Positions 5,171 through 63,577 of a DNA stretch of 64,000 nucleotides are shown piece after piece; the first letter of the stretch is position 1, and each line of letters opens with the position of its first letter. Both the position numbers and the translations under genes were made by a program. The notes beneath the pieces were generated by a model. The model had not been told where the DNA came from and did not search any database. It saw nothing but the letters and a program-made list of their open reading frames with translations. Location: the NCBI RefSeq assembly GCF_037975245.1, contig NC_092572.1, forward strand, positions 17,584,273 to 17,648,272, read 5' to 3'. The stretch is from Apostichopus japonicus (lineage: Eukaryota; Echinodermata; Holothuroidea; Aspidochirotida; Stichopodidae).

Positions 5171-5228
5171 TAATTTTTGTAATTTAATATTAATGTTATT
5201 GCTTAATATCTTACTACAAAATTTAACT

Positions 5229-6680: not shown

Positions 6681-6952
6681 TACCTTCTTTTTTTTTTGCC
6701 TTGATTTTTCAAGATTAAAGAAAAACTTTGTTGATTTTTCACCCTCCTCGTGCCACTGAATTTTAGACCTGAGGAAGGTTCCTTGTAATTCTCTTAATGA
6801 AAGTTGGTTCGACTCATCTTCTGGGTTTTTAAAATGGGTACAGTCGTAATCGGAGAATTTTTGAGCTTTGTATTTCTCGTAGTCAATTTGTTTTGTTAGC
6901 TAAGCCTTCTTCTTGGCCCGACGTAGTGATTTCTGTTTTCTTTTGCTAAATT

Positions 6953-7850: not shown

Positions 7851-7867
7851 TGTTACAAGAAAAAGGG

Positions 7868-16354: not shown

Positions 16355-16450
16355 AACTGGACGACATACATTAACCTTGGCGTGACTCGAACTCTGGAAC
16401 TTATGATTGAAAGGCACCGGCGTTAACCATGCACTGAGCTAACACTCCTA
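16355..16450 (-). mobile_element. tRNA-headed SINE fragment (AGTGTTAGCTCAGTGG family)
   Basis: On the minus strand it reads aggagtgttagctcagtg, with two extra bases, then an A-box/D-arm-like region and a B-box-like gagttcgagtcacgcc. The same head occurs at 57507-57586 and 58332-58409. The body beyond aactggacgacataca is missing. Confidence 0.65.
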
Positions 16451-33265: not shown

Positions 33266-36200
33266 CTACAACAGGTTTCTCTGACAAGCGTACCAATTAT
33301 TATTCTGGCAATTTTCGGCAAACACGATGCTGCTGGTTAAGTCCACTACAGCACATTTCTCTCCCATATATGTATCAAGGAGACTCGGGCTATCTGCAGG
33401 ACTATCGCCATCATACCACATATCTGTGAACAGAACAAATATCTTCAGAACTAATAAAAAAATGTTACTCTACTGGGTGTGTATTACTATCATAAGGCTG
33501 AATGTATTACTATGCATAAGCTGAATGATTGCCAATTTCACTGAAAGAAATATAACCAACAACACTTTATTTTAAGTGAAGGTCTTTCTAACATTCGTAA
33601 AGTTTCATTTGACTAACCCTTGCTATAACAATGTTTTGAACTACACAACATTAACACAAAATATGCCATGCCGAGATGGATATTCATCCTCACCTGTGGT
33701 CTCATTCAACTGCGAGCTGACCCAAACAAGTCGATGCGATTGATCATGATGATTGCAATCGAAGTTAGTCGAGCTACTAACGGCACTTGCTGAGACCAGT
33801 TTGCCTCCAAGAAATCGGCAAGCTTCGCTCGCTTCATGGTGGTTCAGAAATCGCCTTTGACACGTATATCTCATCGTTGATGGCACCAATTGTCCTCCGT
33901 CGAATGTATTCCAAATAACTGTTAAGAAATATCACTTATATGCATGATGTGCATCTTGTTTTTATTTTCCATATACTGCTTTAGAAACCATGCAAATCCG
34001 TGCTAAATATGGAGTCACATGAATGCATACCAAATATCATATTACATATCTTCTATATATCTTTTTGCAATAATATTCCAAGCTTTTCAATATCATTTTG
34101 GTTACCTTAGATATCACTTTATATAAACGAAAACACGTATAATATAATACCTCTCAGAGTTTGCAGAGAACACCAACTTCCATCGGCCCATCGATAAACA
34201 AAATGGTTCAATGAGCCAAAATAATATGTCTGTACTTCATCGGTGAAAGGTCTTCCATTCATCTGTATATTTGTAACATTGGCCAGCAGAGTCTTCAAAA
34301 ATTATAAGAAAAGGATCACCAAAAAAGAGAGTTATCAACCAATGTTTGACAATCGACGTCAGAGATATTTTAAAACTCAACGATTCTTTAGCACGATCGG
34401 AATATTTAATTGCCGTTCTGAAATTATAAAGTAACTCCTGACTATGCAGTTTTTTTTATGTCAACTTAGTTTCACCAATTAATTTATTGTAGATAATGAA
34501 TTAAATACAATAGATGTGTGACAACTGCTGTGTAAGTATGAATTTTCTATCTTTCTTGCAACGTCTCCACAAAAATTGATAGTATGGATTCATCGATTAT
34601 TAAGTGGCACGGTAGTAATTACTATTTCAGCGTCATAATCGATGTCGTGAAGTGATTACGGCATTAACGTGTGATCTAAAGATTACAGGTTCGAGTCTTG
34701 GTTAGGTCATAACGTGCCTGATTTTACTGCACCCTATGGATTGCAAATTTCTTGTACTCCTTTATTAGGTTTGCGTTCATTTATTTAAGAGAGGAGTCTT
34801 TCTAGTCTCCGAATGTCTTCGTTAAACATTCTCGGGAACCTCTATTCCCATGGGCAAAGTTGATAATATCTCAGCTGTTGTGTAACATTTGTAGTTCCTC
34901 ATTCCTGCTAGGAACTGAGAGGGGGGAAAATATTCATTACCGAGTTTTCCGAGGACCGCAGAGGAGGTATCCAAGTTCCATTATCAAGTTTCATCACATG
35001 CACGTCCGCAGGGCAAGGTTTAACTTTCATCTGATCTATAAAGCGACACAAATTTGAAAAATTATATGAAGGAGCAGAATGTAGTTCATATCACGACTCG
35101 TCGAGTCCAGTAGATCGGAGATCTAGCCCGGGTCCAAAAAGTCCGAGTTCGTGATATGTTCCAAGCAGAAGCATTCCAAATGCAAAATAACCCTGAGTCC
35201 ACACCACTCCCAGTCTAAATCCAAGTCCGAGTCCCGGCTATAAACTACGCACGCTTTCAATCTCCTTTCACGCACCTCCTATCTGTCTCACCTCTAGTGG
35301 ACACCTCTTCTCTCATGTCATACTGTGACATATTTTGTCTCAACAAGTCTCAGCTGAGTAGCCTATCTAATTCCATCGACTGAGATGTAAGATTGAACGT
35401 TTGCACTGTACAGAAGTGCTCGACACTTTGGGAATTTGAGCAAATTGCTCAGTCAGACTTTTTGGTGACATAGCCTCTACTGAGGTCTCCTTTTGGAAAT
35501 AAATATGTGTTATAAAGAAAAGTACAAATGTATACGGCTGGCAAATTTGCTACAGTAGCCAAGTCTTTTTTGAAAGAATTTAGAAGTGGGGACGCAATTC
35601 AGTAAGGGACGTACTTGATTAGATATACACAACTGGACCGAATAAGAAGTTTGTCGGTATTTGAATAATGTGACAACATTCCTCTGGTGGATTCATTAAA
35701 AACCAAATTGTTTTTTGCTAAAATAATCCACCCATACTCAAAAGTATCCATCATTTCTAGTGTTATGGGGGCTTCGATCGCTTCAAGGGCTTCAATTGAA
35801 AAAGATTGGTGCCGACTTAACCGATCCCAATGCAGTTACATAAAGGTTTAATAAAGGGTAGTTTTTACGCTAGAAAATTAAAAATACTATATATCTGGGT
35901 CTTGACATTATGATTCTCGCTGAAGAAGGAGAAGTACTGGCCGTATATTTTTATGATTTACCAATAGATGTAGACGCAAAAGCTTTCTAAAGTAAATAAG
36001 CAAAGCATGTTCACATAACAAAATGTAAAAAGAATCGAAAGTATGGCGTATACCAACATTGACTGTAAAAGATTATATAAACTGAATTTGTAAGCATTCT
36101 AACCTTCATATTCACAGATGTATCCAACAGATTTGAAACACGGCAAGTCCCTCCATATGAATACGCCATCTTTTGTGTTCATAGCATAGCACCCACTCTT

Positions 36201-37098
36201 TGAATTGAAGGTATCCTTTATATTAAAATGAAATGAGTGGAATTTCATCATGGAACCATCATCCCAATGCAACGACTGGTTTAAGTCTACTCCTTCAAAA
36301 GTAAGATTACTCCATGTCGCTGAACGTGGAATCCCGTATGCACCTATCCAGTAGCTAGCGTCACTACCGTCTATGGCATTATGAAGGAAATCATTCTCCT
36401 GTTGGTTGTCTATGATGACAAGGTGAGAATAGTTTCCTTCACAACTAGCACGAGCATCGCCGCGATTGGCTGGTGTGGTCGCATTTACTATCATATAGCA
36501 GGAACCGTTCAAAAAGGTATCGAAATTCCTTGGACAATCTGTAAATAGAAATGCGCAATGCCGTCATATCATTGCTTTGTCTTCAACCTCATTTGCTGAG
36601 TCTCAAAACAAAAACAAAAGCCGCCACGAATATTACTGTCCGAAATAGGGCGCCTGTCCATTGTACTTTGCTTACTGTTTTTAATCACAAACCGTATAGG
36701 TATAAGTGCCATATAAGGTTATTACCACCCAACCCAACCTAAATCCTTCACTCTTAATTATTAATCTGCTGCCTCTCAAAGTGTTAAATTGTCTGTGGAA
36801 AACATCTGTCTTAATTGTACATTCACATGTGTACCTTGTACCACATGGTCGTAATTACGGCGACAATTTATTTATTAACATTACCAACGAATTGGCACTT
36901 CAAAGTTTTCTATAAATTATATTTTATTAGCTTTATACAGTTTAACTATGGTTACATTGACCAAATATTCTCACTTACTGTTGTCAACCGTTGTTGGTAA
37001 TGATGTTTCTGATGTCCTAATAGGTTGGGTACATTTAAAGAAACCTCTCACTTCCCTTGCCTTTACAACTGATGATACCTCACACTGGATACAATAGA
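33266..37098 (-). CDS. C-type-lectin-like gene with two lectin-type domains, partial
   Basis: Minus-strand exons: 36979-37098, 36104-36538, 34151-34292, 33694-33918, 33266-33423 (stop TAG at 33266-33268). Exon 36104-36538 is a whole C-type lectin-like domain: CPRNF start, WIGAYG, WDDGS, a cysteine before YAM, and WRDLPC...YICE at the end. Exons 33694-33918 and 33266-33423 join in phase 1 to form a second, more divergent domain (ASEACRFLGGKLVSA, VWVSSQL, MWYDGD, NWYACQR). No EPN or QPD sugar-binding triplet is seen, and WND is WRD in the first domain, so calcium-dependent sugar binding is doubtful. The signal-peptide exon was not found. Exon 34151-34292 is open only in a phase that does not fit the first lectin exon, so the model is broken there or lacks an exon. 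Expected role: secreted or surface recognition protein. Confidence 0.75.
34630..34800 (+). mobile_element. Possible tRNA-like SINE in a lectin-gene intron
   Basis: An A-box-like stretch (gtgaagtgattacggcatt) is followed about 45 bases later by a B-box-like caggttcgagtcttgg, then a body with gcaccctatggattgcaaat. Only one copy is in the window. Confidence 0.4.
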
Positions 37099-41465: not shown

Positions 41466-42870
41466 CCAGATGATACCAAATACAGATTCATAAGGTATAG
41501 GTATTGTGGGGAAATGTGGCAAATGAACTTGAATATTTGGCTGTCAGATCCACCTTTACCCAGTTAAATCTCTCTTTTTGTTTGTGAAAGTTAAAGGGCA
41601 TTTTTTCCTAGACATTTTAAATGCCGCATTTTATACTTATTATTGAGTGTGTAATAGTAAATACGAAAGTAATGATATTTTTTAAAAGTTTTTTTTCTTC
41701 AAGGTTCAATGAGAGAACTGAAAGCAGTGTGTTTTATTTTTACATCTCTCCTTTCGTCCATAATATGTTAACTTAGGTCTTTCAAAGCCAATGTAAATCA
41801 TCATTATCGTCACATGTTATAATTACTCATTATATTTTTACTACTGATACTTAAATATATACCAACTATAGCTGTTACGTAGCTAAATCTCTAGTACTAT
41901 ATATCGACAACAGCTATCAATGTGCACCCCGGGGGAATTTAAATTATTAAAAAGAAAGTTATCTCAACATACTAGAACTTCAGGAGGTTTCAACCCTAAC
42001 TCTTACCACACCCTTACTCACGGGGCCACCAAAAAATTCCATGATAATTGAAATGTCCTTAGAAATGTATTTTTGTGCTTTAAAATCCTCAGTCCATATT
42101 AAATTCTGGAGAAATGTCAATGCTCCCTTTCAAATGCATTTTTAAATGCACAATCGGAAACTATACTTGCTACGCGTTGGTGTATACAATGTCAGCTTTA
42201 CATATAAAACAAATTGCATTTTGTTGATGCAATTTTTGAAACGTTGCTCGGCTAATCAATGCAGTTGGTCTCAACAAAGCTTATCGAACTAATGTACATC
42301 TCATTCCGGCAAAATCAGCTGGCAATCGACTAAATGACCAATGGTCAATATGAGGTCTATTACTGATCTTAAATCTGGAAATGGGCCCTGAGAGCGGCGT
42401 GACAACTACCGAAAATAAAATATCCACTACGGCCAACATACTAAATGAAGACGAAGTTGTCTCCCGATGCACGGCCAAAATGTGAATTTAAAAGAAATCA
42501 TGTACTCAACAGAAAACGCCTGAGACTGCCGTATCCGTGCGTTGACCTGGTCATGGGTTAATATGGACTTTCCTCTAGGGGCCATAATATTGCTGCACCA
42601 CTACTATACACCACTGTCCCCAGCCCCAGACACCATACAAAACTGGGCAAATTTGACGGCTATCCGGTTAATTTTGGACCTGGCTTTTGATAATCCGAAA
42701 TGTGCGTGCCCCCACTTTTTTCTGGGCATCATAGATTCATCTTTATTTGTTCATGCTATGGATTTATACCCAACAATTAGATCCCAATCATTTTCCTGAC
42801 GGATTGAGCTGGATGTGTGCAACCATCGTCGGCCATTTCTTCTCTTGTGATCTACAGCGTGGCATGTTTA
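41466..42870. other. Intergenic
   Basis: No exon or repeat with a recognised class. Confidence 0.4.
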
Positions 42871-42871
42871 C

Positions 42872-43045
42872 AGGTGCTGTGGTCGAGTGGGTAAAGGTGG
42901 TGGCATTTGAAGCAATGTGGCTTACTAATCGGGAGGTTCCGGGTTCGATATCCGACCGGGTCATAGTAAGGTGTGTTTTGCATCCAAGAGCAATCGACGG
43001 TTTACCCATCTGAAAATGACTTTCTAAATTGGAAATATTCAAACT
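42872..43045 (+). mobile_element. tRNA-derived SINE (leucine/serine-tRNA-like head), intact copy
   Basis: gtgctgtggtcgagtgggta gives an A box (TGGTCGAGTGG) and ggttccgggttcgatatccg a B box. A body follows (ttttgcatccaagagcaatc, ctgaaaatgactttctaa). The same SINE, split by a transposon, lies at 48945-50496. Confidence 0.8.
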
Positions 43046-45128
43046 TAGAGTTTAAATGTTGCATTGGAAGCCACCCAACGTGTAAATTGTAATCCATAAG
43101 CCCTTGCGGATTTCTTTTATTATTTTTATGTCAACGTCCCTTTCCCTCACACATGTGCCAATCCGCACAACATCATCAACACATATGGACACTTTCTGAG
43201 TCTACTACTTGCAAATGTACCCCGTGCAATTTGAACTTATTGGCATAACATTTTTTTTCCAACCTGATATAAAGTGCTAATCTAAGACAATCAAACAATT
43301 CTGCTCAAAGAGTTTCTCTAGACTTCCCCATTGCTGATAAGAGCCCGGTGTTATATTATTTCAATTGAAAACAAAGGAAAATGTGTGTATTTGAATACTC
43401 ACATATGTGACAGCTGTGACTGAAACTATCTCTACGGTTTTTGTTCTGGAAATAAAGAATGAATTTACATCGTCATATTAAGTATCGTCTTTGTTGATGT
43501 GTTACTAAGAACTAACAGTTTATTCAATGTGAAGTTCTAGTTACACGACTCGGTGATAGACTTTGTGCAGTCATATGCCTACATGATGTTGCCCATTTAT
43601 TGTCAAACGGGAAAATAGGGGAACTATGCGATAGACGCTTTGTACACTATAGCTTCAACAATAGAGTAAACAGTTTACAACCGTTTATCTCACTGTAATC
43701 ACAACGACAGTAACCCATCCGCTCATACGCACAATGCAGGGATTACATGTTACTTTTTGCAGCATATTGGATCACATTTTCAGCAACGTTGTGCTGTTTT
43801 CTTCTTTTTGGCAATTCCCATAACTCATTCTGTCAACGAATGCACATCCCTTAAATTTACGTGACCTCTGTCTTACTTAATTGGAATTCAAAAAAAACTC
43901 AAATGTTTGAATATTCAGTTTATAACGTAATATTCAACTTTAGCTAGCATACTTAATATTCTTTCTATATGTGTTTTCTACAGTGAAGTGCATCCCTAGC
44001 CGACAAACCGATGGGTAACATGCTACTAACTTTTCCTCAAAAGTTTGAAAAAAGGGGGTTTGCACTGCCACCTCTGTTCCTTACCCATGTTTAAAATACT
44101 GTACGTAAACTTACTGTGGTATCTTTTAAGAGTTTGTACCGGTGGATGACGAAATGCGGCATTTATTGACATAGCAACCATGTTGCTTTCTTATATACGT
44201 TGTTTCTACCATACAAGAAATCCGTTAAGAGTTCTGAGCTCCCCGGTCTCCAAAGATCCGGTGACCGCAACCCATGGCCGGTGGTTTTCGAATGTTTACT
44301 TCCTAATACATGTGATCCCATGCCAAAGTATGTCAGGCTATTATAGGCGAAGGTGGGAATCAATCCCCGGACCTTCTTGTCACATGCCTAAACCCATACC
44401 AAAACAGACACAGTGATTCTACTGATGTTAATGCGTATGAAGGGCTGTAACTATCTGACTATCTGACAATCGACTGATATTCTGACAATGTATAAAGAGT
44501 TAACACTTTTAGAGGCAACCCAAGCCTTGCATTTTTACAGTAAATATGGTAGAAATGGTTGCAAAACGAATTCAAGTTAAACTTGAAGTAAATATATAGT
44601 CTGTCAGTTACTTCATACTCGTTTTCATCTTTCTCAAACGTGATAATCCAATGTCAATGAGAACCACTATATAGAGAAGATGCAAAAATTAATTGCTCCT
44701 TTGAGTGTCCAGATTCTAACTTCCGTATCATTTGGAAATAAAACGAAGTCTTAAATGCCATCGTCGGAGAAAGGTTTATTTGAATTAATAACAAAAATCA
44801 CTATAGGTTTCAAATATTTTCATTTCAGGTGTCTAGCAAATCGCTCATGCATCGGCTACATAGGAAAACGATCATGTCATACTAAACGGAGAAACGGAGA
44901 AAGTATTGATCGTGAAAAGAGTCACTTACCATTCACTGATACACAGCCCTTCATGTATTGTTTGATAAATGAGCTTCTAGTTAAGTCATATAAAAAAAAT
45001 AATAATAACTGATGAACAGAAGACTGTCATACTGTAGACTGTAACATACAATAACTAAATCTTAACATTCAGTAATGATCGTGAGTAAACACAATAATCA
45101 TTTACACTTAATCATGTTTCGATTTCTG

Positions 45129-45178
<50 letters not shown>

Positions 45179-45188
45179 ATAATTAGGT

Positions 45189-45221
<33 letters not shown>

Positions 45222-45830
45222 TTTTTTTTTATATTATATATATATATTTATTATATATATATATTTGAGTTTGTGTGCATAGGAAATAACGGAATAAGAT
45301 GTTAAACGACTATGCTGCATTTAGAGAAAGGCTGGATCTCGAGTGAAATACAAAAATGATTGGAGGTATATATATATATTTCAATAATACGAAAGAAAAC
45401 AGCAGAATTGTTATTCGAATAACTAGAATCACACGAGAGGGAAAGGGGCTCTTATATCATAATCGACACTGGGGATTTTAACCATAGTGTCAAGGGTAAT
45501 GTGGGTAAATATTTGACAACAAATATCTTGACGGGATGTTTTCTCAGGGATCGAAGGTGTTGACCATTTTTTTGTGCATCCATGCACTATCAATTTACAA
45601 AGTATGTGTACCTTGTGTATGGTAAAGAATGTTCTTAAGACGGGTACTTTGGCGTTAATTCTATGAACTTTGTAGCCGTGTGTTCCGGTACTATTACGCA
45701 TAACTTACTCAATTTTGGCTTGGAAGGATTAGGCAGGGTTCTTCGGTAACAAAACGTAGAAGTCAGAGTTTTTTAAATATATGAATATTCAGGCATTAGA
45801 ATATTAGTAATGATATATCATTTTACTTAC
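43046..45830. other. Intergenic or 3' part of the Ig gene
   Basis: The Ig gene must continue leftward because its last recognised exon ends in phase 1, but no convincing next exon was found. TA tracts are at 45131-45177 and 45190-45260. Confidence 0.35.
45131..45260. repeat. TA microsatellites
   Basis: Two TA tracts separated by ttgataattagg and a T run. Confidence 0.95.
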
Positions 45831-47441
45831 AATCTGATCGTACCAGAAAGCTCTCGTCCTGGGCACAAGGTCGTATACATCTAGAAGCAAAGCATCTCAG
45901 TGTAGCATTTCGTTGGTTACCAAGGTTAAAAGGAAACAAGCAGGTTTGGATCATATTGCCTTCGTTTAGTATTGTACCGTTCGTAGGTAAGTTTACCCAT
46001 TGGTTGTTTTCTTCAACATTAAGACGTTGTATGAGAACATCAGGGAAAGGGTTTCCGTCGGATGTACAAGTGATGTTAACGTTGCCATTACTGTCTGCAA
46101 CCAATATATCGAGTGATGGGTGTTGTGGTACCCATCTTACGGTAGCTGGATCTATAGACATAGAGAAGAACCGACCTAAATGTATCATTGTTCTTTGAGA
46201 TTTGGTAAAATCTATCTTAAAAAGTACCAAATTATCGTGTCATTTATTTAAAAAATGTTTACCTATTATTGCGGGCGAACTTATGCCCTTCTGTTGGACA
46301 TTACAGTGGACTATTAAGTTTGTATCGTCGTTGATCGACGAAACATGGGTAAGAGTAATGAACACACAATATGACATGTTGATAATGTAGACGAAGTGCG
46401 CGTTATGAGAAATAGTTTGTTTACTAGGAAGCAAGATACTACGAAAACATTGCTGTTCTTTGTTAAATGTATATAGGCTATCACTAGTGCCTATATTGGC
46501 GATGTGCAAACTTTCAACAGACTTACACAGGACTTTCATCTGTACGGTGGAGAACCATTCAGTTCATTCTTCACTAGGCACTTCAGGGTTTGATCATGAT
46601 GTCTTCGTTTGGCTACAAAAGAAACGTTGCTACATGATGACGATATTTGTTCGGAAATCACGTTATTTGTACTTCTTGTTTTCTCCGAAAGAAGTTTGCT
46701 GCCAATTGTCCAAAGGAATGATGCAGTGTGGGTTGTATCTGTCGATTGACTACAGCACTCTGCTGATGCGATCTCGTTTCTCCATGCAGTTGAGACATGA
46801 ACGATTTGCGGGACACCTTAAATGAAAATATTTTAAATCTAGTGAATAGTTATCAATTCAAATGAACTTTCTCCGAAGACGATATTTTAAAATATGCATC
46901 TGACAATATTTCTACATACCTTGTACTATTATTAACCATTCACACTTTTCCAAAGTAGACAGTTGAAGAGTATATTGGTAGCAAGTATAGTTTCCCGCGT
47001 CCTTGAATGTAGTATTAGTAATTTGTAGACTAGTACTCCTTCCATTTGTTCCTATGGTGAAGATTCGCCTGTCAACTCTCTTTGTCACGGCTTCATCGAA
47101 ACGGTGAGTCAATGGGCCTTCTTTCCAAAGGATAAAGAAGTCAGAATTGGCGGACTCGAAGGAGCAATTGATTTCTGCAGTATCCCCGAGCACCACTAGT
47201 TCTGTTTCTCCCTGACATTGAACTAAGACGTTTGAGAAAGAGGGAAAATAGTATGAATAAATAATAGACTGCAGATTTTCATCAATTTAAACTTGAAATT
47301 ATCGTTTTTACAACGTTTCTACCATGTTTAGCAATATTAAATTTATTTAGTTTAACTGTTGCAATAATTCTTACCTGTAACCAATAAAATCCAAATCTCT
47401 AGTATTGTCATCCACTGGGAACATTGCCGGCGAGTGTTCAT
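45831..47441 (-). CDS. Immunoglobulin-superfamily protein, signal peptide plus at least three Ig-like domains, partial
   Basis: Exon 1 (47375-47441) encodes a start Met and a hydrophobic leader (MTILEIWILLVT). It joins in phase 1 to exon 46920-47222, a V-type Ig domain with EINCSFES, the core W in ILWKEG, and DAGNYTCYQY. This joins in phase 1 to exon 46540-46816, a second Ig domain (SFLWTIGSKLL, TLKCLVKNE). A further piece ending at 46263 (NLIVHCNVQ) joins in phase 1 to exon 45831-46151, a third domain (VNITCTSDGNP, ATLRCFASR) that ends in phase 1 at GTAAGT. Between the second domain and the 46263 piece the frame breaks (TGA after SPPYR), so there is an unseen intron, a frameshift or a real stop. 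No membrane segment was found. Probable role: secreted or surface recognition molecule. Confidence 0.75.
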
Positions 47442-48019
47442 AATGCACTTTAGGGTAGTTTTTGGTTGAATTTGTTGTCAACTGATACGTCAAATCTTTG
47501 AAATGGAAACGATTAAAGTCAGATGAATCTTTCTACGCTTACATCCTTCACTTGATGTAACCGTGTTGTGCTCTTCTTAGTTTATCAAAGGTTAGTCGAA
47601 TACTTCTCTGATTCCTTTCAATATATATTAAAGGATCATAAGATAAAAGAGTACTTAAAGACTTAAACTGCAGTCTGTGATCTTTTAGTTTCAGATCTAT
47701 TTACAGAAATCGAAACATGATAAAAGTGTAAATGAGTATTGTGATTGCTAACAATGATTACTGAATGATACAATTCAGTTATTGTGTATTACTATAATTA
47801 AACAGACTAATATTCAGCAGTCATTATATTTGTGTCATTGATAAACTAAAGCTCATTTAATTAACAAGCATAAATGGCTGTGTAACTTATCAGTAAATGA
47901 TAATTGACTCCTTTCATGATCAATTCTTTCTCCGTTTATAGTGTGTGATACAATTGTTCAAACAAAGTAAGTTCTCATGCTGAAAAATTCATGTTTCAAT
48001 TATCTCTTATATATATATA

Positions 48020-48090
<71 letters not shown>

Positions 48091-48179
48091 TAAAAGCTGA
48101 AAAGACGAGTTGTATCCTTATTTTATTGTTCTTGTTTGTCTATTAATATATATATGTATAAATATATATATATGTATAA

Positions 48180-48236
<57 letters not shown>

Positions 48237-48340
48237 CTATATATAGGCTATATATATATATATACATATTTATAAATATATATATATAGGCTATATATAT
48301 ATAACCTGATTAGGAAGTTAAATAGGTAAATAAACAATAT
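47442..48340. other. Spacer upstream of the Ig gene
   Basis: AT-rich with TA microsatellites at 48008-48089 and 48150-48300; no exon recognised. Confidence 0.4.
48008..48302. repeat. TA microsatellite cluster
   Basis: Several TA tracts interrupted by ataggctatatataggc-type motifs. Confidence 0.9.
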
Positions 48341-48344
48341 AGAC

Positions 48345-48392
48345 TACCTGATGGTAAGAAGGAACTTCCATGATTACATCATAATTCTCAAA
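48345..48392 (+). other. Relic of the ML-gene upstream region
   Basis: gactacctgatggtaagaag gaacttccatgattacatca closely matches the block upstream of the ML genes at 59536-59580 and, less well, 51716-51750. No ML exon follows within the expected 300 bp. It may be a fragment of a third, lost copy or a shared repeat. Confidence 0.45.
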
Positions 48393-49040
48393 AGTTGATA
48401 TTGATTATATCCTCGTAGATCAGCAGAGGAAACCCTCCACCCAGGATGTCTACTTTAATCCCCTGTGCTATTTGTATTAGTGTGTTGTAGGAGAGTGTTT
48501 CCACGGATTAACCTCTAGTTATGGTGTCTTAAGTAATGTCACATAATTCCAGGGAGCAATGCATAGTGGTGGAAACTTAAATTGGTTAAATCTCTTACAC
48601 CTTCAGTAGAAATTTCCAGAGAGAGTCTTGGACACACTCATGTATAAAGTAGTTATCATGGCTGGGGGAAGTTCAGTCTCTTGAAGGAGCGTCGGGCAAC
48701 AACATTTTTAATAAGACAGGCTAGAAGGCTGCCTCAAAAAAAAATGTTATTGTTAAAATCGAGAAAGTGCATGTGTCGATTTATCAAAGTAAGTAAGCAA
48801 ATTTATAGGAGGAGCTGCTTCACTGTGCTGATGGGAGACGCTGGACACAAGGTGGGTGGGGGGGGGGGGATACCGCAAGGGCTTATGGATTACAACTTTA
48901 CACGTCGTGTGGCTTCCAATTCAATATTTTTACTCAAATTTGGATTTTTTTTTTTTTTTTTATCAGTTTAGAAAGTCATTTCAAATGGGAAAACCATATG
49001 ATTGCTCTTGAATGCAAAACCCACTTTACTAAGACCCGGC

Positions 49041-50398
49041 CGCGATTTTTTTTTTCCCAAACAGGTTCTCAATTACGGAGTTTTCAGCCAATCAGATTGC
49101 TCGTGACGTCAGCATCAAACGCTTGATAGTTCGAAGACATACACTGAGTTACACACTGACACTTAATAATGTGTTACGCGGTTTCCCTGCAAACGCCCTA
49201 ACTTTTACTTTTAATGCTTGGATAACATGTTGACCTTACTTATGATACATACGCTACATTCTATCGGTTTCGTGTTTATGCCATCCAAGATTCGTCAGCC
49301 GTTCTATTGAAATCGGAATTCGTTTCGTGGAATGGGTAGGCCTACACCAAAATCAACTTCACGACGCGAGTTCAGCCTTGAATGAATATACGCAAAACAG
49401 TTTAGTGTATAGTCAAGGCTTCATAATTGACGCACCCCCGTAATTGACGCACCTTCAATTATTACTAGCAACGATAGAGCAGGCCACTTAAACTTTTTGC
49501 AGTCAAGCAGAATTACATATTTCATGAGTTTGAATCCATTTCAGCTATTTGATGACCAAATTGTGGAATTTTTAAGCTTTTAACACCCTTCTCCCCGGTT
49601 TTGTACGTTCAGTTTTTGGGCATTTGGGAATCTTGCACCCTAAAGATAACCAACATTTCCTCAATATCATGGACAACACTACTCTCTGGGACCTGATCTG
49701 TCTAAGCTTAGAGGCTCAAAGTATAGCAAACAGCATCTAAAGTCAATGGATGTATTCTAAAGCCTTCACTACAGTTAGCTTATCGACGAATGTGTCAATT
49801 TAGGGGTATGAAAAAACTTGACACGGCAGACATTTTGCGGTCAAGTTCTGCTCAATTGTACGTTGCATATGCACAGAACAATAAATATTTTGAGATCATC
49901 ACATTTCTGAGGAACTACACATATGAAAAACACATACAGTTGAGTGATTTTGATTTTTCCTTGATAGAAATCGTTGATCAAATCCTTAAGTGCGTCAATT
50001 ATGAGCCCACCATGCTACAGTATGATATATTTCCGTCACTGCACTGTGTACACAGTTATAATACATATAGGCCTATATCGCATGTGTTATGTAACCCTGT
50101 ACGAAGCTTTCACTGTGCGATGTTATCGATAAATGCCTTCACAGAAATCTTCGATCAAAGTAGATCATACAATACTAGTGTGCTCATTATGTCTAAACCA
50201 ATTCCAAACACATCTACATATATTTACGAAAAGCTGAGGGTAATTTTGAACGGGTATATCTTCGTTGCAACGAATGGATGCAGACATTTTGATAACCTCG
50301 AAATGAAGGGTTTTATTGTTATGACGTAACTTTTCCGACCAATCATAAGCGACTATTTATACACAATTGAGAACCTGTTTGGGAAAAAAAAAATCGCG
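49041..50398. mobile_element. 1.36-kb TIR element with perfect 34-bp termini
   Basis: Positions 49041-49074 and 50365-50398 are perfect inverted repeats starting CGCGA, then ten T, then CCCAAACAGG. The target duplication is acccggc (49034-49040 and 50399-50405), possibly up to 9 bp if the terminal CG is shared. Imperfect inverted similarity continues inward: each end has a CCAAT box and a TGACGT motif. It carries an ORF (49790-50329) of unknown nature. The duplication length leaves hAT and MuDR-like groups open. Confidence 0.88.
49790..50329 (+). CDS. 179-codon ORF inside the 49041-50398 element, unknown
   Basis: The longest open frame of the element runs from an ATG at 49790 to a stop just before the right terminal repeat. 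The predicted protein has no motif I recognise: no DDE signature, zinc finger or signal peptide. Composition is not repetitive (Tyr, Ile and Asn frequent, six or more Cys), so it is not a simple-sequence artefact. It may be a remnant of a transposase-related gene, a captured sequence, or chance. Confidence 0.3.
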   Translation: MCQFRGMKKLDTADILRSSSAQLYVAYAQNNKYFEIITFLRNYTYEKHIQLSDFDFSLIEIVDQILKCVNYEPTMLQYDIFPSLHCVHSYNTYRPISHVLCNPVRSFHCAMLSINAFTEIFDQSRSYNTSVLIMSKPIPNTSTYIYEKLRVILNGYIFVATNGCRHFDNLEMKGFIVMT

Positions 50399-50496
50399 AC
50401 CCGGCCGGATATCGAACGCGGAACCTCCCGATTGCTAAGCCTCATTGCTTCAAATGCCGCCACGTTTATCCACTCGGCCACAGCACCTGTGTGACT

Positions 50497-52009: not shown

Positions 52010-54939
52010 ATGATGTCCATTCTTTTGCTGTTTCTGATGGCGTTTCCGATAACCAATGGTTTGCCTGCGTCACCGGGAATCACTCATATCTACAGGGTAG
52101 ACAGTCAAGATGCATCTTCGACTAACAAAGATCAGCCAATGACATGCGAGTTCATAATTTCTAGTAAGTCATTAATGCACGCTGTTAACAAGCTTTACGC
52201 TATATTTTCGCTCTCTTCTGATTAGTAGGCCATATAATATTAGCCCATCTAGTATTAGGTTAATTTTCCCGTGGATACAACCCTTTTTTATTTGTCCAGT
52301 ACTTAACCGTATGATTTAAAATGGAATAACAAATTATGTATTAAAACAAACATGTATATGTTTTACCAAGTTGCATCGTTAACGGTAACTTTGGGGGAGA
52401 TTAGACTTTGAATTAAAGACCAACTTTATAGCACAAATCTGCCTTGGAATGCGCCATTTCAGAAATCCTACCACCCACCCCACGCCTACCCAACTAGTCT
52501 TCCTAATGGGGTCGACTTTGACGAAATCAGGCCCACAATCTCTTCTTTATACATTTATTAATTTGCTTCTGGCCCTTCCATAAAGGTCCATGCTGCTACC
52601 TAAATCAGTGGTTGAATTGACACCGCCTCATCTCTCTACTTTTAAAATCATAAACACCTTTACCGTTTATTGTCGTTCCTTTAATTATCAGTGCAGTATG
52701 GTACCTTCTTCAAAATAGAAGATCTTGTTAATTTCGTGATGACCATTTTGCGATAAGAACATGGCGTGCTTAGAATTGTAGTAGGAGTACAATAGGACGA
52801 GTAACGTGATTGAAAGTAGACTTCCCCCCCCTTATAGTATGTATTATAATTTTTGTATAGGCCCTACAAGACAATATACTATGAGTGTACTCTGAGCTAC
52901 ACTATGAGAATAACGAAGTATATGTGAGCTATACTATGAATACTATGAGCCATACTATAAGTACTATTAGTAGTTACAAGCCATATGATCTATACTACGA
53001 GATACACTATGAGTATTACTGAGTACTACTGAGTAGGCTCTGCGTGTGAGTATGAGTACACCATTTTTTGATCGATAACCGTACGTGATCTATACAAAAC
53101 GCTGAATTTCAAGTTTTGATTAACTTTCCGGTAGATTGTTATACATTTGTTACGCCCAGGCATTTCTTTGTCTTTTTGGTCGTGATTCGCAGCCCGTGCA
53201 TTGCCGACTACGAGTCCGACGGCTCGGAAAACCGAGCATGTGGCGTTTTCCGAATTGGCAGCCGGCAGTGTGCGGTGGTTCACCAACTAAATCCAGCAGC
53301 AAAACTACACGATTGAACACGACCCAACACAACTGGACTGTATAGTTACGTGGAGAATCGTAGATATGAGTCCGGCATTGTGCGTGTGTGTTTAAGACTA
53401 TAACTGATCATGACTTTGGTCAGTTTTATGTCGTATCGGCTTCAGTCTGGAACAATGAATATATAGCGTTTTCTTCGAGACCGGTAGCTGTGCCGTGTTT
53501 ACGGGTTTACAACTGAAACTATAAACTTTATGTAGCCATTAGTTAACACGGTTAGAGATTTTTCACGAAAAAACGGTCGGTTCGGGTCGGGTCGGGAATT
53601 TGGGCAGTGTATTGATGGCGAAAGGTTATATTATGATAAACCAAGGCTGACTCCGCACTTTCTGATTTGTTTACTCTCTTTTTCCTAGGTCCTTGGATGG
53701 GCCACTTCAACTTTTCATTTACACCAAATCCACCAATATTAGGTGGTTTCGTCAAACTTGTGGCCAATGTGGTGCCCTGTATGTATACATGAACTTTTTT
53801 ATTTATACCACCCCCTGCCCCCCCCCTCCCTCCACATAAACAAATCCAGAATAAAATGGAGATGTGCGATCCGTCCACAATTTTTAGATATTTGACTATA
53901 CTGCATCGTGGATTATAGTTTTACTCAACAAAGTCTCACTAGTTTTGTAAAACTTTGGCCAATTTATATACCAATTAATGTTTTATCTAAATTATTCAAA
54001 TTTGTAAGTTTGTATAATCCGACCATTGGTATCACGAAGTCGCGCAAGGCAATACGATAAGTAATCATTACTAATATTCAAAAAAGAAAAGATTTTTCTC
54101 TTTCTGTTTTGGGTACATTTGCAGTAAAGGACATATGGTTAATCCGGGCAAGTGGAAATGGTACATTGCATGGCAGTGAAGTGACTTTCAGATATGACAA
54201 AACATTCTGTGATTTTAGCAGCACATACTATTGGTGCCCTGCTAAGAAAGGAGGTAAATATTGCACTGACCAATTAAAGTCACGTAACTTTTAAGAATGT
54301 TGTGAACAAGTTTGTTTTTTGCAATGTTGAAAAAATCTGGAGAGAAACGAATAGAATTTGTAATGAAGTAATGTAATAGAAAAGATTCCCAATCACTTGA
54401 GATTACCGAGTTGTAATCTCCACATATTCAAAATGCAAGTTCGCCTGGGGTAAACCAACGGCTTCGCTCTTGTGATGCTGGTGTGTTAATGTAAAACAGG
54501 CTTTAGTGATTCCTTATTTTTTTTTTTTTTACTTTAGCATTTTCTTTATAAACTGTGCTAATATCACCAACTATATCTTGCGTCATTTTTGGATAGTATA
54601 TGTCAGAATACACATATTGGAGAATTGGAGATTCTCAGCCGCAATATAGCCAACGATTAGTTCAAACTTGTCAAGGAAATTGCACAATTTTGTTTCTGCT
54701 ATTAGAAACCATAAAGTTGCACGTCCAAACACTACTGCCAACGGTTTCATTACTTAGTTTCATACATATTGAATATAACGAGAAACTAATAGAAAATAAT
54801 ATTGACCATTTATCCCGCTTTACAGAACATATTCACTTCGAGAAAACTTATAAATTTGACTACTTTCCAAAGGTAAGTAAAAATAATTTAATTTGTTACT
54901 AACGTGTTAGGTGATGCCATATAGGCAAAGTATGACCCG

Positions 54940-54993
<54 letters not shown>

Positions 54994-55762
54994 CTGCTAC
55001 CCGTTGACACTTTATAGTTGATACTATATAGGCTAGAGGTAAAAAAAAATTGAACACTCACTAGGATTATTTGTTTTGGGTTTTTTTTTTAATGAGAAAA
55101 GAAATTAAGAAGAGAGCAAAGCATCGATGCAACTCCATTTATCGGATAATTTCTAGGTGTGATTCCTGATTGTTGCAATAAATACCATTGCATGAGGCAT
55201 GTGGTCTCTGACTGGATTTAAACTTACCCCAGTAGTTCCACAGCTATATAAGGATCATTGCACAATATGTAATTGTATGGGGCAGTGTGGGCTCTGACTG
55301 GATATAAACATACCCCAATAGTTCACAGCAACATATGGATCATTGCACAGTATTGAATTGCATGGGGCAGTGTGGGCTCTGACTGGATATATACATACCC
55401 CAGTAGTTCACAGCTATATAGGGATCATTTCACGGTTTATAATAAGATAGGGTAGTGTGGTCTCTGACTTGACATTATACGTAACCCAGTAATTCACAGT
55501 TATATTTGAGGATCGTGGTAAGAGCTGGGGAGATCAGGGCTATTAACAATAAGGTCATTAGGTCGAATATCGTTCCTACCAAACGTGTTCCTGCATATTA
55601 CAAGTTCTGTGTTAGATTGTTGGCCGTTTCATGTTCTTGCCTTCTTTTTTCCCCTTCTTTTTCCTTTTATAACAGGGGACATACTCTATTGCCGCAGAGA
55701 TGTTTATTCAAGATGACGAAAAAATTCTAACATTGGTTGTGAATAATTGCACTTTAAACTGA
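52010..55762 (+). CDS. ML-domain (MD-2-related lipid-recognition) secreted protein, copy A
   Basis: Five exons: 52010-52163, 53689-53778, 54125-54253, 54826-54872, 55676-55762; phases 1, 1, 1, 0; 168 residues. The first 17 residues (MMSILLLFLMAFPITNG) are a signal peptide. Cysteines at about 46, 110, 119 and 165 match the ML fold: an outer pair and a hairpin pair (C-x8-C). The segment WCPAKKGEH, then FPKGTYSIAAE, corresponds to the C...KGE, KG-x-Y block of MD-2 and GM2-activator-like proteins. Three N-glycosylation motifs are present. ML proteins bind lipids such as lipopolysaccharide or glycolipids in a beta-sandwich pocket; the ligand here is unknown. A second in-frame Met follows the first; I took the first. 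AATAAA lies at 55904-55909. Confidence 0.85.
52870..53045. repeat. Degenerate ACTATGAG-type repeat in intron 1 of ML copy A
   Basis: Irregular tandem copies of tactatgag/tacactatgagta over about 175 bp, absent at the equivalent place in copy B. Confidence 0.65.
54942..54990. repeat. TA microsatellite in intron 4 of ML copy A
   Basis: Pure TA tract of about 48 bp. Confidence 0.95.
55187..55525. repeat. 85-bp tandem repeat in intron 4 of ML copy A
   Basis: Four units with tctctgactgg or gctctgactgg at 55205, 55291, 55376 and 55461, each followed by accccagtagttcacagc and ggatcattgcac. Copy B has a single unit near 63275-63335. Confidence 0.85.
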
Positions 55763-57506: not shown

Positions 57507-57586
57507 AACATTAATCTTGGAGTGACTCGAACCAGGACCTTTATGATTGGAAGGCACCGGCGATAACCACTGAGCTAACACTCCTA
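57507..57586 (-). mobile_element. tRNA-like SINE head
   Basis: Minus strand: aggagtgttagctcagtggt (A box) and cctggttcgagtcactcc (B box). It continues, across the LINE fragment, with the body at 56866-57063. Confidence 0.75.
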
Positions 57587-57855
57587 GAAATATGAAGACA
57601 AATGCTGTTATGTTTTTGTCATTCGTTCGATAAACGAGATGAAATAAAAAATTTAAAAAGAATTGTTGAACCGGTGATCAACTTATTTACAAAGTGATAA
57701 CATTTTCAATACTTACATATATGTTCGAGGTACCACAACACCTTTAGAATCGTATTGGAACTCTTGCCAATTCAAGAATGAAAGTCTCTCGCGTGTGCTC
57801 TCAAGATACCATCTTGTCAGAAGTGGAGGGCTAAATTCAAAATTTCCCCTGACTG

Positions 57856-57886: not shown

Positions 57887-58409
57887 TGTATGTATGTATG
57901 TATGTATGTATGTATGTATGTATGTATGTATGTATGTATGTATGTATGTATGTATGTATGTATGTATGTATGTATGTATGTATGTATGTATGTATGTATG
58001 TATGTATGTATGTATGTATGTATGTATGTATGTATGTATGTATGTATGTATGTATGTATGTATGTATGTATGTATGTATGTATGTATGTATGTATGTATG
58101 TATGTATGTATGTATGTATGTATGTATGTATGTATGTATGTATGTATGTATGTATGTGTGTATGTATGTATGTATGTATGTATATTAGATCCTCCTGCAA
58201 GCAGGAACTCGCGAAGAAGCCGCATTGGCTTATCAAAGCCGCAAGCTGACCGAAGTCAGTCTCTTACATTCATATTTAACGTCCATGATTATGAATTGTT
58301 AATTGTCAACAACTCTGTAACTGGACGACATACATTAATCTGGGAGTGACTCGAACCGGGGACATTATGATTGAAAGGCACCGGCGTTAACCACTGAGCT
58401 AACACTCCT
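57859..58409 (-). mobile_element. Complete SINE with a 328-bp TACA tail
   Basis: Head at 58332-58409 (A and B boxes as in 57507-57586), body 58188-58331 ending with the hairpin CCTGCTTGCAGG, then an almost pure TACA tail (TGTA on the plus strand) at 57859-58187. Because the tail follows the SINE 3' end directly, the microsatellite arose by tail expansion. The MYVC and IHTY ORFs are artefacts. Confidence 0.88.
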
Positions 58410-59535
58410 TATCAATATGGGACTGAAGGATCTTATAAAGGATGGGTGCCTCCCTATGGTCGTTGAATCTGACTCCCATGTGAAGGGGTTTGTGACTTAT
58501 CCCACAGTAAACAAAAGAAGTGTAGACATCCAATCGTAAATTCTGAGTCATATTTAAACTACAAATTAAGTCTTTATATTATAAACACAATGTTGTTCTA
58601 ATTAATACCTGGTGTGAGTCCGAAAAGTAGGCCTGGGGTTGTACACCGGAAGCAGTGGTCTCATTCTCCCTAGTCTAAAAATAGAAATCTCCCACGATTG
58701 ACGATTGTAGATGAGAGCATGGCAACCCCATCCCTTACCTCCAACCCCCTTTCCTTGTAAGCCACTGAATTCAATACCATGACACTATTCGACTAATTTC
58801 TTTCGATTCGATTCGAGCTCGATTTTATTTTCAAAAGAAACAATTATAAATATCATACCGTTATAAAACAGAAAAGTGATTAAGGAAACTAAAAGACTAC
58901 AAAATCTAAAAACGTGTTTCTACATAGCATATTATTAATTTAGTAACTATCTCAACATTAACGAGACTTACACGTCTTCTTCCCCATAATGATTCACTTA
59001 TGTAAGTAATAATTCAGATAGGTTACAGGAAACACACACCCGACCATCATTCTTGATCTTTGCGTTAGAAATTAATGTCAAGTTTTTAACTTCCAATAGC
59101 AGCTGAGACAAATGTTATCCACCTGAGATATTTAATATAAATTCAGTCACATGTGCTTCTTTTTATATGTTTTGTCTTTTATTGATTACTACAATATTTA
59201 ATTTCTGTAGTGGAAATGAGTTTTGCAAAAGCTGAATTTAATTTCAGCAATTTGAAGAGTGAAAGAAATAATATATAGCAGAGAGAGAGACAGAGTTGCG
59301 ATACGGGCAGAAATGTACTTTGGCCGAGGGGGTTCGGAAGTTACCAATTTCCCATAACAATTGCGTTTGCTAGAAAGAGTGCAGCGTTTGACAGAAAAAC
59401 CCAGCGTTTGTCACACCATAAAGCAAGCGTTGTTTGGTAAAAAAGGGGAATTATCAAAATAGAGGCACCATTTTTTTTTGGGGGGGGGGGAAGAGGAAGT
59501 TTAAAGTTGTCAAGTTTTATGTTAATAACGAATAT
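58410..59535. other. Intergenic
   Basis: No exon or known repeat; a G run and a short GA tract (59280-59292) are the only simple sequences. Confidence 0.4.
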
Positions 59536-59815: not shown

Positions 59816-62800
59816 ATGATGTCCATTCTCTTGCTGTTTCTGATGGCGTTTCCGATAACCAATGGTTTGCCTGCGTCACCGGTAACTAGTCATCTCTACA
59901 GGGTAGACAGTCACGAGACATCTTCGACTATCAAAGATCAGCCAATGTTATGCGAGTACCAAATTTCTAGTAAGTCATTAATGAACGCTGTTTAATAAGC
60001 TTTACGCTATATTTTGCATAGGGTTATAAGCTAATTTCGCTCTCTTCTTATTAATCTATATAATAGTAGCCCATCTAGTATCAGGTTAATTTTCCCGTGT
60101 ACAACTCCTTTCAATTGTCCAGTACTTAACCGTGTGGTTTAATATGGACTAACAAAGTATGTTTTCAAACAAACATGTAAGTTTAACCACGTTGCATCGT
60201 TTACGATTTAATTTGAGGTACCAGTAACTTTGGTCAAACAGAATTTGATTTTCAGGTAACTCGTCTCAATGACGTACGTAAGACTAGAGGCGAAAGTGGG
60301 GGTGTTAGAGATTAGACTTATAATTAACGACCACATTTATAGCACTTATCTGCCTCGCGAGACCGCGCTATTTCCGAAATCCTACCACCCACCCCATGCT
60401 CACCCTCCTAGTCTTCCTAATGGGGGTCGCCATCATCGATATCAGGCCCACGGCGACGCGCTCTTCTTTATACATTAATTGACTTGCTTCTGCATGGCCC
60501 TTCCATAAAGTTTCATGCCGCTATCCAAATCAGTGGTTGAAATTAACAATTTGTCCAACGCCAACTCTCTCTCTCTCCGTTTAACATCATAAACACCGTT
60601 CCCGTTCATTGTCGTGATTCGCAGCCCGTACATTGTCGGCTTCGAGTCGACGGCTGAGAAAACCGAACATATGAGGCATTTTTTGGATTGGCAGCCGGCA
60701 GTGTGCTTTGGTTCACCAACTAAATCCAGCCACAAAACTACACGACTGAACACGACCCAACACAACTCGACTGTATAGTTACGTGGAGAATCGTAGATAT
60801 GAGTCCGGCATTGTGCGTGTTTGTTTAAGACTATAACTGATCATGACATTGGTCAGTTTTATTTCGTATCGGCTTCAGTCTGGAACACTTAATAGCCTAT
60901 ATAGCGTTTTCTTCGAGACTGGTAGCCGTGCCGTGTTTACGGGTTTACAACTGAAACTATAAATATTTACAAATATAGCCATTAGTTACCACGGTTAGAG
61001 AATTTGCACGAATAAACGGTCGGGTCGGGTCGGATCGGATTGGGAATTCGGGTCAGGAATTCGGGTCGGGAATTCGGGTCGGGAATTCGGGTCGGGAGTT
61101 CGGGTCAGGAATTCGGGTCGGGAATTCAGGTTGGGAGTTTGGGCATTGTATTGATGGCGAAAGGTTATATTTATGATAAACAAAGGCTGACTCGGCACTT
61201 TCTGATTTGTTTACTCTCTTTTTCCTAGGTCCTTGGATGGAAAATTCTAACTTATCATTTACACCAAATCCACCAAAATTAGGAAGTCTCATCAAACTCG
61301 TCTTCAATACAGTGTACCGTAAGTATACATAAAATTGATCATGACCCCCCTCCCCGCCCGCCACCTCTCCATACCCAACAATCCAGAATGAACTGGAGAT
61401 GTACGATTCGTCGACACTTTCCAGATATTCTACTTTACTGCATTGTGCATTAGTTCTACTCGAACACAGACTCAGTAGTTTGGTCAAAATTAAGCTGATT
61501 TTTATATGTTGATTCTTTCTCCCATTTATTTAAATTTGCGAGTTTGTTTAATCCGACCAGTGGTATCAGATAGTCGCACGGGCAATACGATAAGTAATTA
61601 TTACTACCATTTAAGTAAGACAAGAATTTTCTCTTTCTGTTTTGGGTACATCTGCAGCAAAGGACGTATTGTCAATCCGGTTATCTTTAAATGCTACATT
61701 GCAAGGCAGTGAACTAACTTTCAAAGTGGACAAGACAGTATGTGATTTTGAACGTAGACACGATTGGTGCCCTGCTAAGAAAGGAGGTATGTATTGCACT
61801 GACCAATTAACGTCACGTAACTATTAAGAACGTTGTGAACAAGTTTATTTCTGCAATATTGATAACATCTGCAGAGAAACGAAGGGAATTTCTTATGAAA
61901 TAATGTAATAGAAGTTATTCCAAACTTGAAGTTGAGATGACCGCAACAACGGCTTCACATCTTGTACTACTGGTGTGTTCATCTGAAACAGGCTCTAGTG
62001 AATAAATTGTATATTTATTTTTACCAACATATATTCGGCTTATTGTTTGGCTTGATATCACCAATATCTCTTGCGTCACTTTGGATATAAGTATTTGTCA
62101 GAATACACATTTTGGAGGTTCCCAGCCGCAATATAACCAACGATAAGTTCAAACTTGGCAGGAAACTGCACAATTTTCTTTGCACCCGATACACAGAAAA
62201 CACAGTAACTACTGTAAATATTAAAGTTTTGTACCTGAGTAAAATTAAGATCGTGTTATAAATCAGTTACATATACTTTTAGGATTACAGTAAGAACTGA
62301 GGATACATGTAACCCCAACAAATCCTCTACCATGCTGCATTTGTTTGGATTACACATATCCTCGGTTTTTGCTGTAAACCTAATAGCGCATGCTACGGAT
62401 ATATCATATTTATCAGCATGATCCAGTATTTACTGTGGTACAAAACTTTAAGATTTATAGTAGTTACTATAAACTCAATGTGAATCAGTTGTGCTTTTGG
62501 AAACCATAACGTTGCACGACCCTGAATTAAGGTCAACAGTTTCAATACTGGGAATAGTAGTCTTCATACATATTGAATATAACTAGACACTATACTTGAA
62601 AATAATATTGACCATTTATCCCGCTTTACAGATCATATTCACTTCGAGAAATTGTACAACTTAACTTACCTACCAAAGGTAAGTGATATTTATTTTATCT
62701 GTAACTAACGTGTTAGGTGATGCCATACAGGCAAATTAGGCCAGGCAAATTTAACCATCCTAGCCCCCCCGCCCCCGCCTTCCTAATTGTATATACATAT

Positions 62801-63577
62801 ACGTATATTAATATAGTAGAATTGAAACTGTAGTATAAATATAAAAAATATTTATATATATATATATATAAATATATATATACAGATATAAATATGTATA
62901 TATGTATTTATTTATATTTATATATATAAATATATATATATATGTATATGTATGTTATTTATATCTTGAAGGTTTCAACCATCTTTTCTATGATACAGTT
63001 ATGTCATATATAGTTATTACGCTGGACTACGTGTTTTATGCAAACCTTCTGCATGCCTATTGCACCATTAAACGTTTCACTACACGTAGTCTCTCTTTCC
63101 CTGCCTCGGTCCCTGGTGTAATAAAAGCACACTAACTGGTTGTTTTATGTGTTTCTCCAAAGTATAATTATTCTACTTCAAAATTGGGACTCATATCAAT
63201 ATGAATGCACGGCTGTTATTAGTATCATTGTTAACTTCACATTCTCTTGGTTAAACAAGAAGTTTGTTTTGTTTGGTCTCTGACTGGACATTTTACATAC
63301 CCCAGTGATTCACAGTAATATTTGATAATCGTGGTAAGAGCTGGGGAGATCAGTGCTATTAACAATAAGGTCATTAGGTCGAAAATCGTTCTTACAAAAC
63401 GTGTTCCTGCATATTTCAAGTTCTATGTTAGATTGTTGGCCGTTTCATGTTCTTCTTTTCTTTCTTTCCTTCTTTTTACTTCTATAACAGGGGACATACT
63501 CTATTGCCGCAGAATTTTTTATTCAAGATGACGAAAAAATTATCACAATGGTCACGAATAATTGCACTTTTTACTGA
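59816..63577 (+). CDS. ML-domain (MD-2-related lipid-recognition) secreted protein, copy B
   Basis: Five exons: 59816-59969, 61229-61318, 61658-61786, 62632-62678, 63491-63577, with the same phases and lengths as copy A, giving 168 residues. By hand alignment without gaps 116 of 168 residues equal copy A. The signal peptide is identical and the four ML cysteines are kept (C-x8-C in CDFERRHDWC). Glycosylation motifs differ: NLS, NAT, NLT and NCT. Changes concentrate in exons 2-4, the part expected to form the pocket. All splice sites are canonical, so the gene looks functional. The ligand is unknown; the role as a secreted lipid-recognition protein is inferred from the fold. Confidence 0.85.
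61022..61142. repeat. 15-bp minisatellite in intron 1 of ML copy B
   Basis: Seven to eight units of gggaattcgggtcgg; copy A has only a one- to two-unit equivalent at 53577-53606. Confidence 0.85.
62203..62490. mobile_element. Palindromic foldback MITE in intron 3 of ML copy B
   Basis: Arms of about 130 bases are inverted repeats: cagtaactactgtaaat, attaaagttttgtacc at the left and ggtacaaaactttaagat, ttatagtagttactata at the right, plus inner ggattaca, gaggata pairs. The equivalent intron of copy A lacks it. Confidence 0.8.
62850..62960. repeat. TA-rich microsatellite
   Basis: TA tracts interrupted by aaatatgtatatgtatt motifs, in intron 4 of ML copy B. Confidence 0.85.

Follow-up and report, generated by a model that had tools for sequence, protein, structure and literature searches.

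The two ML-domain genes analysed here, A and B, open a tandem array that encodes MD-1-like ML proteins, which are probably secreted. Our preferred reading, to which we assign a probability of about 0.6, is that about a third of the mature codons in this array are under selection, that the changing residues largely face the putative lipid pocket and that block exchange between copies has spread the variants.

The window, i.e., the whole stretch of 64,000 nucleotides that was analysed, corresponds to C12:17584273-17648272 of the 671.6-Mb genome, and the next 200 kb were also scanned for ML genes. A (g01) and B (g02) are intact ML-domain genes on the plus strand, each consisting of five exons that have consensus AG/GT splice sites and together give a 168-codon open frame. 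The exons of gene A span 52010-55762. Exon 1 (52010..52163) has an ATG, an open frame and a GT donor, and encodes the leader (codons 1-17, an assumed cleavage point) and the start of the mature protein. Exon 2 (53689..53778) and exon 3 (54125..54253) both have AG/GT sites and align with B without gaps, exon 3 containing the loop between C110 and C119. Exon 4 (54826..54872) has AG/GT sites, and exon 5 (55676..55762) has an AG site and includes the stop codon. The exons of gene B span 59816-63577 and lie at 59816..59969, 61229..61318, 61658..61786, 62632..62678 and 63491..63577, the last including the stop codon. Neither tblastn (E up to 100, among the matches listed) nor nucleotide comparison revealed a third copy in the window.

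Elsewhere, the window holds a variety of repeats and coding fragments. A tandem satellite with a unit of about 165 bp occupies positions 1-3730, its in-register copies being mostly 96-100% alike, and is followed by a LINE-like element on the minus strand (4004-7868, in several frames), in which two ORFs match RVT_1 (reverse transcriptase). An exon-sized ORF on the minus strand (36099-36563) encodes a C-type lectin domain (E 1e-13). Inverted repeats are found at 42870-50490, where pieces of 42870-45130 match pieces of 46774-50490 on the opposite strand at 72-90%; an Ig-domain ORF (46912-47286, minus strand) lies within one side of them. Three copies of a sequence of roughly 90 bp (16354-16454, 57508-57594 and 58318-58419) resemble part of a tRNA, and these may perhaps be a tRNA-derived SINE.

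The earlier note on this DNA had assigned the two genes to the ML lipid-recognition family, and profile searches bear this out. Pfam PF02221 (ML domain) scores 24.1 bits for A and 28.7 bits for B, above the gathering cut-off of 22.7, and all nine of the nine array members scanned match it at E up to 0.01. When a profile of nine proteins was compared with PDB chains, the best solved relatives were MD-1 (LY86) chains, with a best E of 5e-4; MD-1 accounts for five of the ten PDB sequences listed, two of these five at E < 0.01. MD-2 is absent among these ten sequences (E up to 10), and so is any insect ML chain. We also considered an NPC2 sterol-transfer identity, with NPC2 as nearest relative and three disulphides. 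This was rejected, as the search, which covered PDB only, gave no NPC2 chain among matches at E up to 10, and mature A and B each have four cysteines. These cysteines (positions 46, 110, 119 and 165) are invariant across the nine aligned proteins. In the alignment to MD-1, cysteines 110 and 119 fall on a pair of cysteines, and we infer that 46 pairs with 165. The N-terminal leader is hydrophobic, which makes secretion of these proteins likely, and it occurs in four amino-acid versions among 16 genes.

In the scanned region, 18 ML genes lie in tandem on one strand over 157 kb, from 52010 to 208675 in coordinates continued from the window. Two of them are incomplete, g05 having no exon 1 and g16 missing exon 4 together with most of exon 3; the other sixteen are intact and have all their splice sites. 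The 16 intact genes give 14 distinct CDS, since g07, g13 and g15 have identical CDS. These three (array positions 104334, 163859 and 180174) are 16-76 kb apart, and their identity reflects either a recent multi-gene duplication or a stretch repeated by the assembly. Gene g09 is the sole close twin of A. Between the A class and the remaining genes, pN/pS values are 0.016/0.159 in the leader and 0.189/0.192 in the mature part, and among the remaining genes they are 0.031/0.095 and 0.078/0.093, respectively. Among the matches listed in a search of the open-licence literature, no title described a tandem ML array of this kind.

To these sequences we applied site models, using the mature part of the 14 distinct CDS with one tree per exon, a design in which exchange within exons is outside the model. 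We implemented the models ourselves and took the topologies and relative branch lengths, which were held fixed, from IQ-TREE. The likelihood ratio tests (LRTs) gave 34.6 for M1a versus M2a, 35.0 for M7 versus M8 and 34.7 for M8a versus M8, and a single tree in place of the per-exon trees gave 54.3. In this comparison among paralogues of one array in one species, 31% of the mature codons fall in a class with an omega of 4.07 and 69% in a class with 0.44. About a third of the mature codons thus show an excess of replacements; the other two thirds or so, like the leader, are constrained. The mean omega (M0) is 1.28 and does not differ from 1 (p 0.20), nor does any of the per-exon values (0.79-1.46). 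Single-exon LRTs are 8.8 for post-signal exon 1, 6.7 for exon 2, 13.1 for exon 3, 1.2 for exon 4 and 9.6 for exon 5; post-signal exon 1 and exon 5 together give 15.6, and exons 2-4 give 18.8. Without A and g09 the LRT is 17.9. By naive empirical Bayes, 33 sites have a posterior above 0.8, distributed over exons 1 to 5 as 5, 9, 8, 3 and 8. Selection on replacements across the array is therefore likely, and it is not limited to exons 2-4. The earlier proposal of positive selection in exons 2-4 stands insofar as the 14 paralogues contain a selected site class, while the restriction to these exons does not hold.

The pairwise comparison of A and B, on which that proposal was based, provides no such evidence. 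We found 28 replaced and 5 silent codons in exons 2 and 3, in close agreement with the previous hand count of 28 and about 4. A large ratio of replaced to silent codons is expected under neutrality, however, because there are almost four nonsynonymous sites for every synonymous one. With 46 synonymous and 173 nonsynonymous sites, carrying 11 and 40 differences, NG86 gives a dN/dS of 0.97 for exons 2 and 3; for exons 2-4 it is 0.82, and 1.00 by maximum likelihood (ML). The earlier note had looked for a dN/dS well above 1 in exons 2-4 and had named a value near or below 1 as evidence against its claim, and for this pair the value is about 1. Over the whole CDS, dN/dS is 0.93 by NG86 and 1.11 by ML, where grid values of 0.7-1.8 lie within 95% support. 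The highest pairwise value belongs to post-signal exon 1 (NG86 3.95, bootstrap 0.018 uncorrected, ML p 0.12). Pooling the mature part of exon 1 with exon 3, a combination picked after the exons were seen, gives 2.8 (p 0.051). Replaced residues in the pair are not clustered beyond chance, and residues shared with MD-1 are no better conserved in it. An abundance of multiply hit codons was considered as a sign of selection and discarded: 24 mature codons carry two or three changes versus 14.8 expected, but with the frame shifted the counts are 21 and 23, and the clumping is therefore not specific to codons.

Values of this kind could also arise from relaxed constraint, where redundant copies drift and a hydrophobic core tolerates exchanges among I, L, V, M and F, which would bring omega near 1 in the absence of positive selection. 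Consistent with this, both the pairwise and the mean omega are about 1, differences between A and B in the mature part are spread evenly over codon positions (31/27/30), and g05 and g16 are defective. However, the reading frames of A and B appear to be maintained. Their aligned noncoding DNA contains 42 indels versus 364 substitutions, and the CDS contain no indels where about 10 would be expected (P 3.5e-5), or 7.8 when expected by length (P 4e-4); they also contain no stops, against a mean of 3.4 in a neutral simulation (P 0.03). Relaxed constraint also fits poorly with 16 of 18 genes being intact, with the conserved leader, with the constrained class at an omega of 0.44 and with a site class above 1 that exceeds the intron control described below. 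We consider it unlikely as the main explanation.

Next, we focused on the contrast between exons and introns. Nucleotide identity between A and B is 90.3% in exon 1, 75.6% in exon 2, 77.5% in exon 3 (100/129), 74.5% in exon 4 and 87.4% in exon 5. This agrees with the previous estimate of about 77 percent for exon 3 and with the better conservation reported for exons 1 and 5, although the conservation of exon 1 is partly owed to the signal peptide: past codon 17, all 11 of its altered codons are replacements. The sequence flanking exon 3 is less similar than the "near 92" percent reported before, with 88.3% identity in the 77 bases upstream and 90.5% in the 63 bases downstream, and near-90% flanks are limited to about 70 bases on either side. 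Over their whole length, introns 2 and 3 are 77.8% and 81.4% identical. Neither exon 3 (29/129 differences versus 171/855 in introns 2 and 3, p=0.56) nor exons 2-4 together (63/266 versus 171/855, p=0.20) are more diverged than these introns. Of the claim that exons diverge faster than introns, what remains is a modest excess of the five exons over their 100-base flanks (CMH odds ratio 1.57, p=0.005), which is found with upstream flanks only (p=0.0003) and not with downstream flanks only (p=0.39). In circular-shift tests, which preserve the autocorrelation, comparing exons with their flanks yields P 0.020-0.038 and comparing them with all noncoding columns P 0.077, and single exons range from 0.08 to 0.45, none below 0.05. 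In addition, synonymous sites are raised over local noncoding DNA as much as nonsynonymous sites (odds ratios 1.47, p 0.21, and 1.38, p 0.04). Two repeats lie within the introns of this pair: an 85-bp tandem repeat with three copies in intron 4 of A (55239-55493), most of which cannot be aligned with B, and an imperfect 265-bp palindrome in intron 3 of B (62204-62468), which is a gap in A in the pairwise alignment and looks like a small mobile element.

The divergence between A and B is arranged in blocks. Noncoding divergence is overdispersed (variance/mean 2.47, P 2e-4), and a two-state HMM divided the genes into tracts of low and high divergence. One low-divergence tract (53254..53700, 5.8%) covers the end of intron 1 and the first bases of exon 2, and two more such tracts contain exon 1 (7.8%) and exon 5 together with its flanks (9.0%); in the middle of intron 1, divergence is 17.8%. 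A high-divergence block (53701..55511) reaches 20.9% over 1182 compared columns, excluding 54890-55455 in intron 4, which is unalignable. Exons 3-4, introns 2-3 and all but the first bases of exon 2 fall within this block. The contrast in this pair is thus mainly a block mosaic and not the result of selection in exons 2-4. The earlier note had conceded that gene conversion of the introns could account for the pattern, and copy exchange does largely explain why exons 2-4 differ in divergence from exons 1 and 5.

Similar mosaics are found throughout the array, where the nearest neighbour of a copy shifts along the gene. Genes g18 and g11 differ by 0.2% over exon 2, intron 2 and exon 3 and by 16.1% at the 3' end, g07 and g02 by 1.4% at the 3' end and 16.5% in the middle, and g10 and A by 3.6% at the 3' end and 22.6% in the middle. 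When the A class is compared with the other genes, exons 2-4 (0.185-0.271) are again about as diverged as intron 2 and the segments adjoining exons 3 and 4 (0.144-0.265). The array genes are mosaics of blocks common to different copies, which reflects conversion or unequal crossing-over.

Such mosaicism raises the question of whether exchange between paralogues yields both the exon/intron contrast and the signal in the site models. Among 11 completed null datasets simulated under M1a, the maximum LRT was 1.87. Pseudo-codons from seven noncoding segments gave 13.2, 20.3 and 8.9 in the three frames (285, 277 and 289 pseudo-codons). Introns read in this way thus surpass the nominal null as well. 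The test is anti-conservative here, and we do not accept the nominal p-values of the site models (3e-8), which are too small, at face value. A 200-base alignment upstream of exon 2 (A class versus rest 0.343) was left out of the seven segments, as was a short segment after exon 4; the former looks misaligned because its A/B value of 0.33 contradicts the pairwise 5/100. In controls matched in size to the exons (151 pseudo-codons, five blocks), the maximum was 13.4 in 17 replicates and 10.1 in 8 more, and the exon LRT of 34.6 is 2.6 times the largest of these 25 replicates, which are few and overlapping and count finished fits only. Without the A class, the intron control reached at most 6.2 in 10 replicates, versus 17.9 for the exons. 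When double and triple changes were allowed at fixed rates, the LRT decreased from 34.6 to as low as 8.5, the low values occurring at rates that fit much worse; a comparison of the best null with the best alternative, multi-nucleotide changes being allowed, gave 31.1. The strong mosaicism, the overdispersed noncoding divergence and the inflation of the test by intron pseudo-codons speak for an artefact of block exchange. This would account for the A/B contrast, but it leaves unexplained the exon excess over the matched controls, the signal that remains without the A class, the constrained leader and the alternating hydrophobic pattern presented below, and we regard it as quite improbable.

A last alternative, positive selection confined to exons 2-4 and visible as exons outpacing introns in A and B, draws on the replaced-codon count and on exon 3 having the largest single-exon LRT (13.1), but is very improbable given that exons 2-4 lie in a single divergence block with introns 2-3, that exon 4 reaches just 1.2 in the site models against 8.8 for post-signal exon 1 and 9.6 for exon 5, and that 13 of the 33 sites with a posterior above 0.8 are in exons 1 and 5.

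Returning to selection across the array, we examined which positions change. Mature positions with at least three residues form 11 pairs at lag 2 versus 4.9 expected (P 0.0013), with no excess at lags 1 and 3. Thus, positions 75, 77, 79 and 81 are variable and 76, 78 and 80 fixed, and 145, 147 and 149 are variable and 146, 148 and 150 fixed. Between positions 44 and 168, 39 of the 57 positions with a hydrophobic majority are variable versus 27 of the 68 others (p 0.002), and at least three residues occur at 19/57 versus 7/68 (p 0.002); 19 of the 26 positions with at least three residues are hydrophobic. Twenty-three sites have a posterior above 0.95. Twenty-one of these align with MD-1, where 15 are hydrophobic, compared to 36 of 92 other positions (p 0.014). 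This enrichment in MD-1 varies with the choice of sites (at least three residues, p 0.02; posterior 0.8, p 0.07; any variable site, p 0.13). Judging from the strand alternation and the MD-1 alignment, selection plausibly acts on the pocket-facing side.

Positions 60, 75, 90, 92, 145 and 147 would correspond to MD-2 residues 46, 61, 76, 78, 133 and 135. PMC6274477, PMC8469597 and PMC9496124 name these MD-2 residues as contacts of the ligand in models. Not all selected sites can belong to the pocket, as exemplified by 113-116 in the C110-C119 loop and by 45, 49, 52 and 56, which lie beyond clear strands. The Cys95-Cys105 loop of MD-2 is described as critical for TLR4 contact in PMC6274477. Because sites 113-116 fall in the C110-C119 loop, partner contact may vary too.

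The ML domain, the cysteine pair aligned with C110 and C119 and the matching alternation of hydrophobic positions liken these proteins to vertebrate MD-1 (LY86), and the domain is also that of MD-2 (LY96). MD-1 and MD-2 are single-copy genes in vertebrates. Unlike these, the array has 18 tandem copies, a diversified hydrophobic face and no known TLR4- or RP105-like partner. Expanded ML genes are also reported for Clonorchis sinensis, where a section of PMC6979364 describes 35 and 32 predicted NPC2-like ML genes in two isolates, often with members of a group on one scaffold and with the predicted cavity kept, and cites positive selection for two orthologue pairs. Those proteins are NPC2-type, whereas the array here is MD-1-like by best match, and that section reports neither block mosaicism nor a pocket-face pattern such as we find. 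Insect ML families share lineage-specific expansion, the likeness drawn here being one of copy number: PMC6979364 quotes 13 for Anopheles gambiae, 15 for Aedes aegypti and 8 for Drosophila. Four ML proteins are listed for sand-fly saliva in PMC4943706, in which the passages on gene conversion and selection concern other families.

Taken together, we propose that the changing positions would largely be hydrophobic, inward-facing residues of a putative beta-cup. The copies may keep a common outer surface, and perhaps a common partner, while their lipid pockets differ, and duplication and block exchange may have spread the pocket variants among them. Whether this amounts to a germline repertoire of secreted lipid sensors, in which MD-1-like cups combine a constant outer face with a diversified inner face and exchange of exon blocks mixes the pocket variants, is a tentative suggestion. 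The array also illustrates that a comparison of a gene pair can arrive at the right conclusion while its exon-versus-intron evidence is confounded by block exchange.

Selection in recognition proteins is usually seen at the exposed surface, and the residues that are conserved are usually the buried ones. Here, the variable positions are mostly hydrophobic and alternate with positions that are fixed. If the variable face lines the lipid pocket, the array would be a naturally occurring collection of lipid specificities built on a single scaffold; if this is true, ML recognition could be read from the ligands that the paralogues separate.
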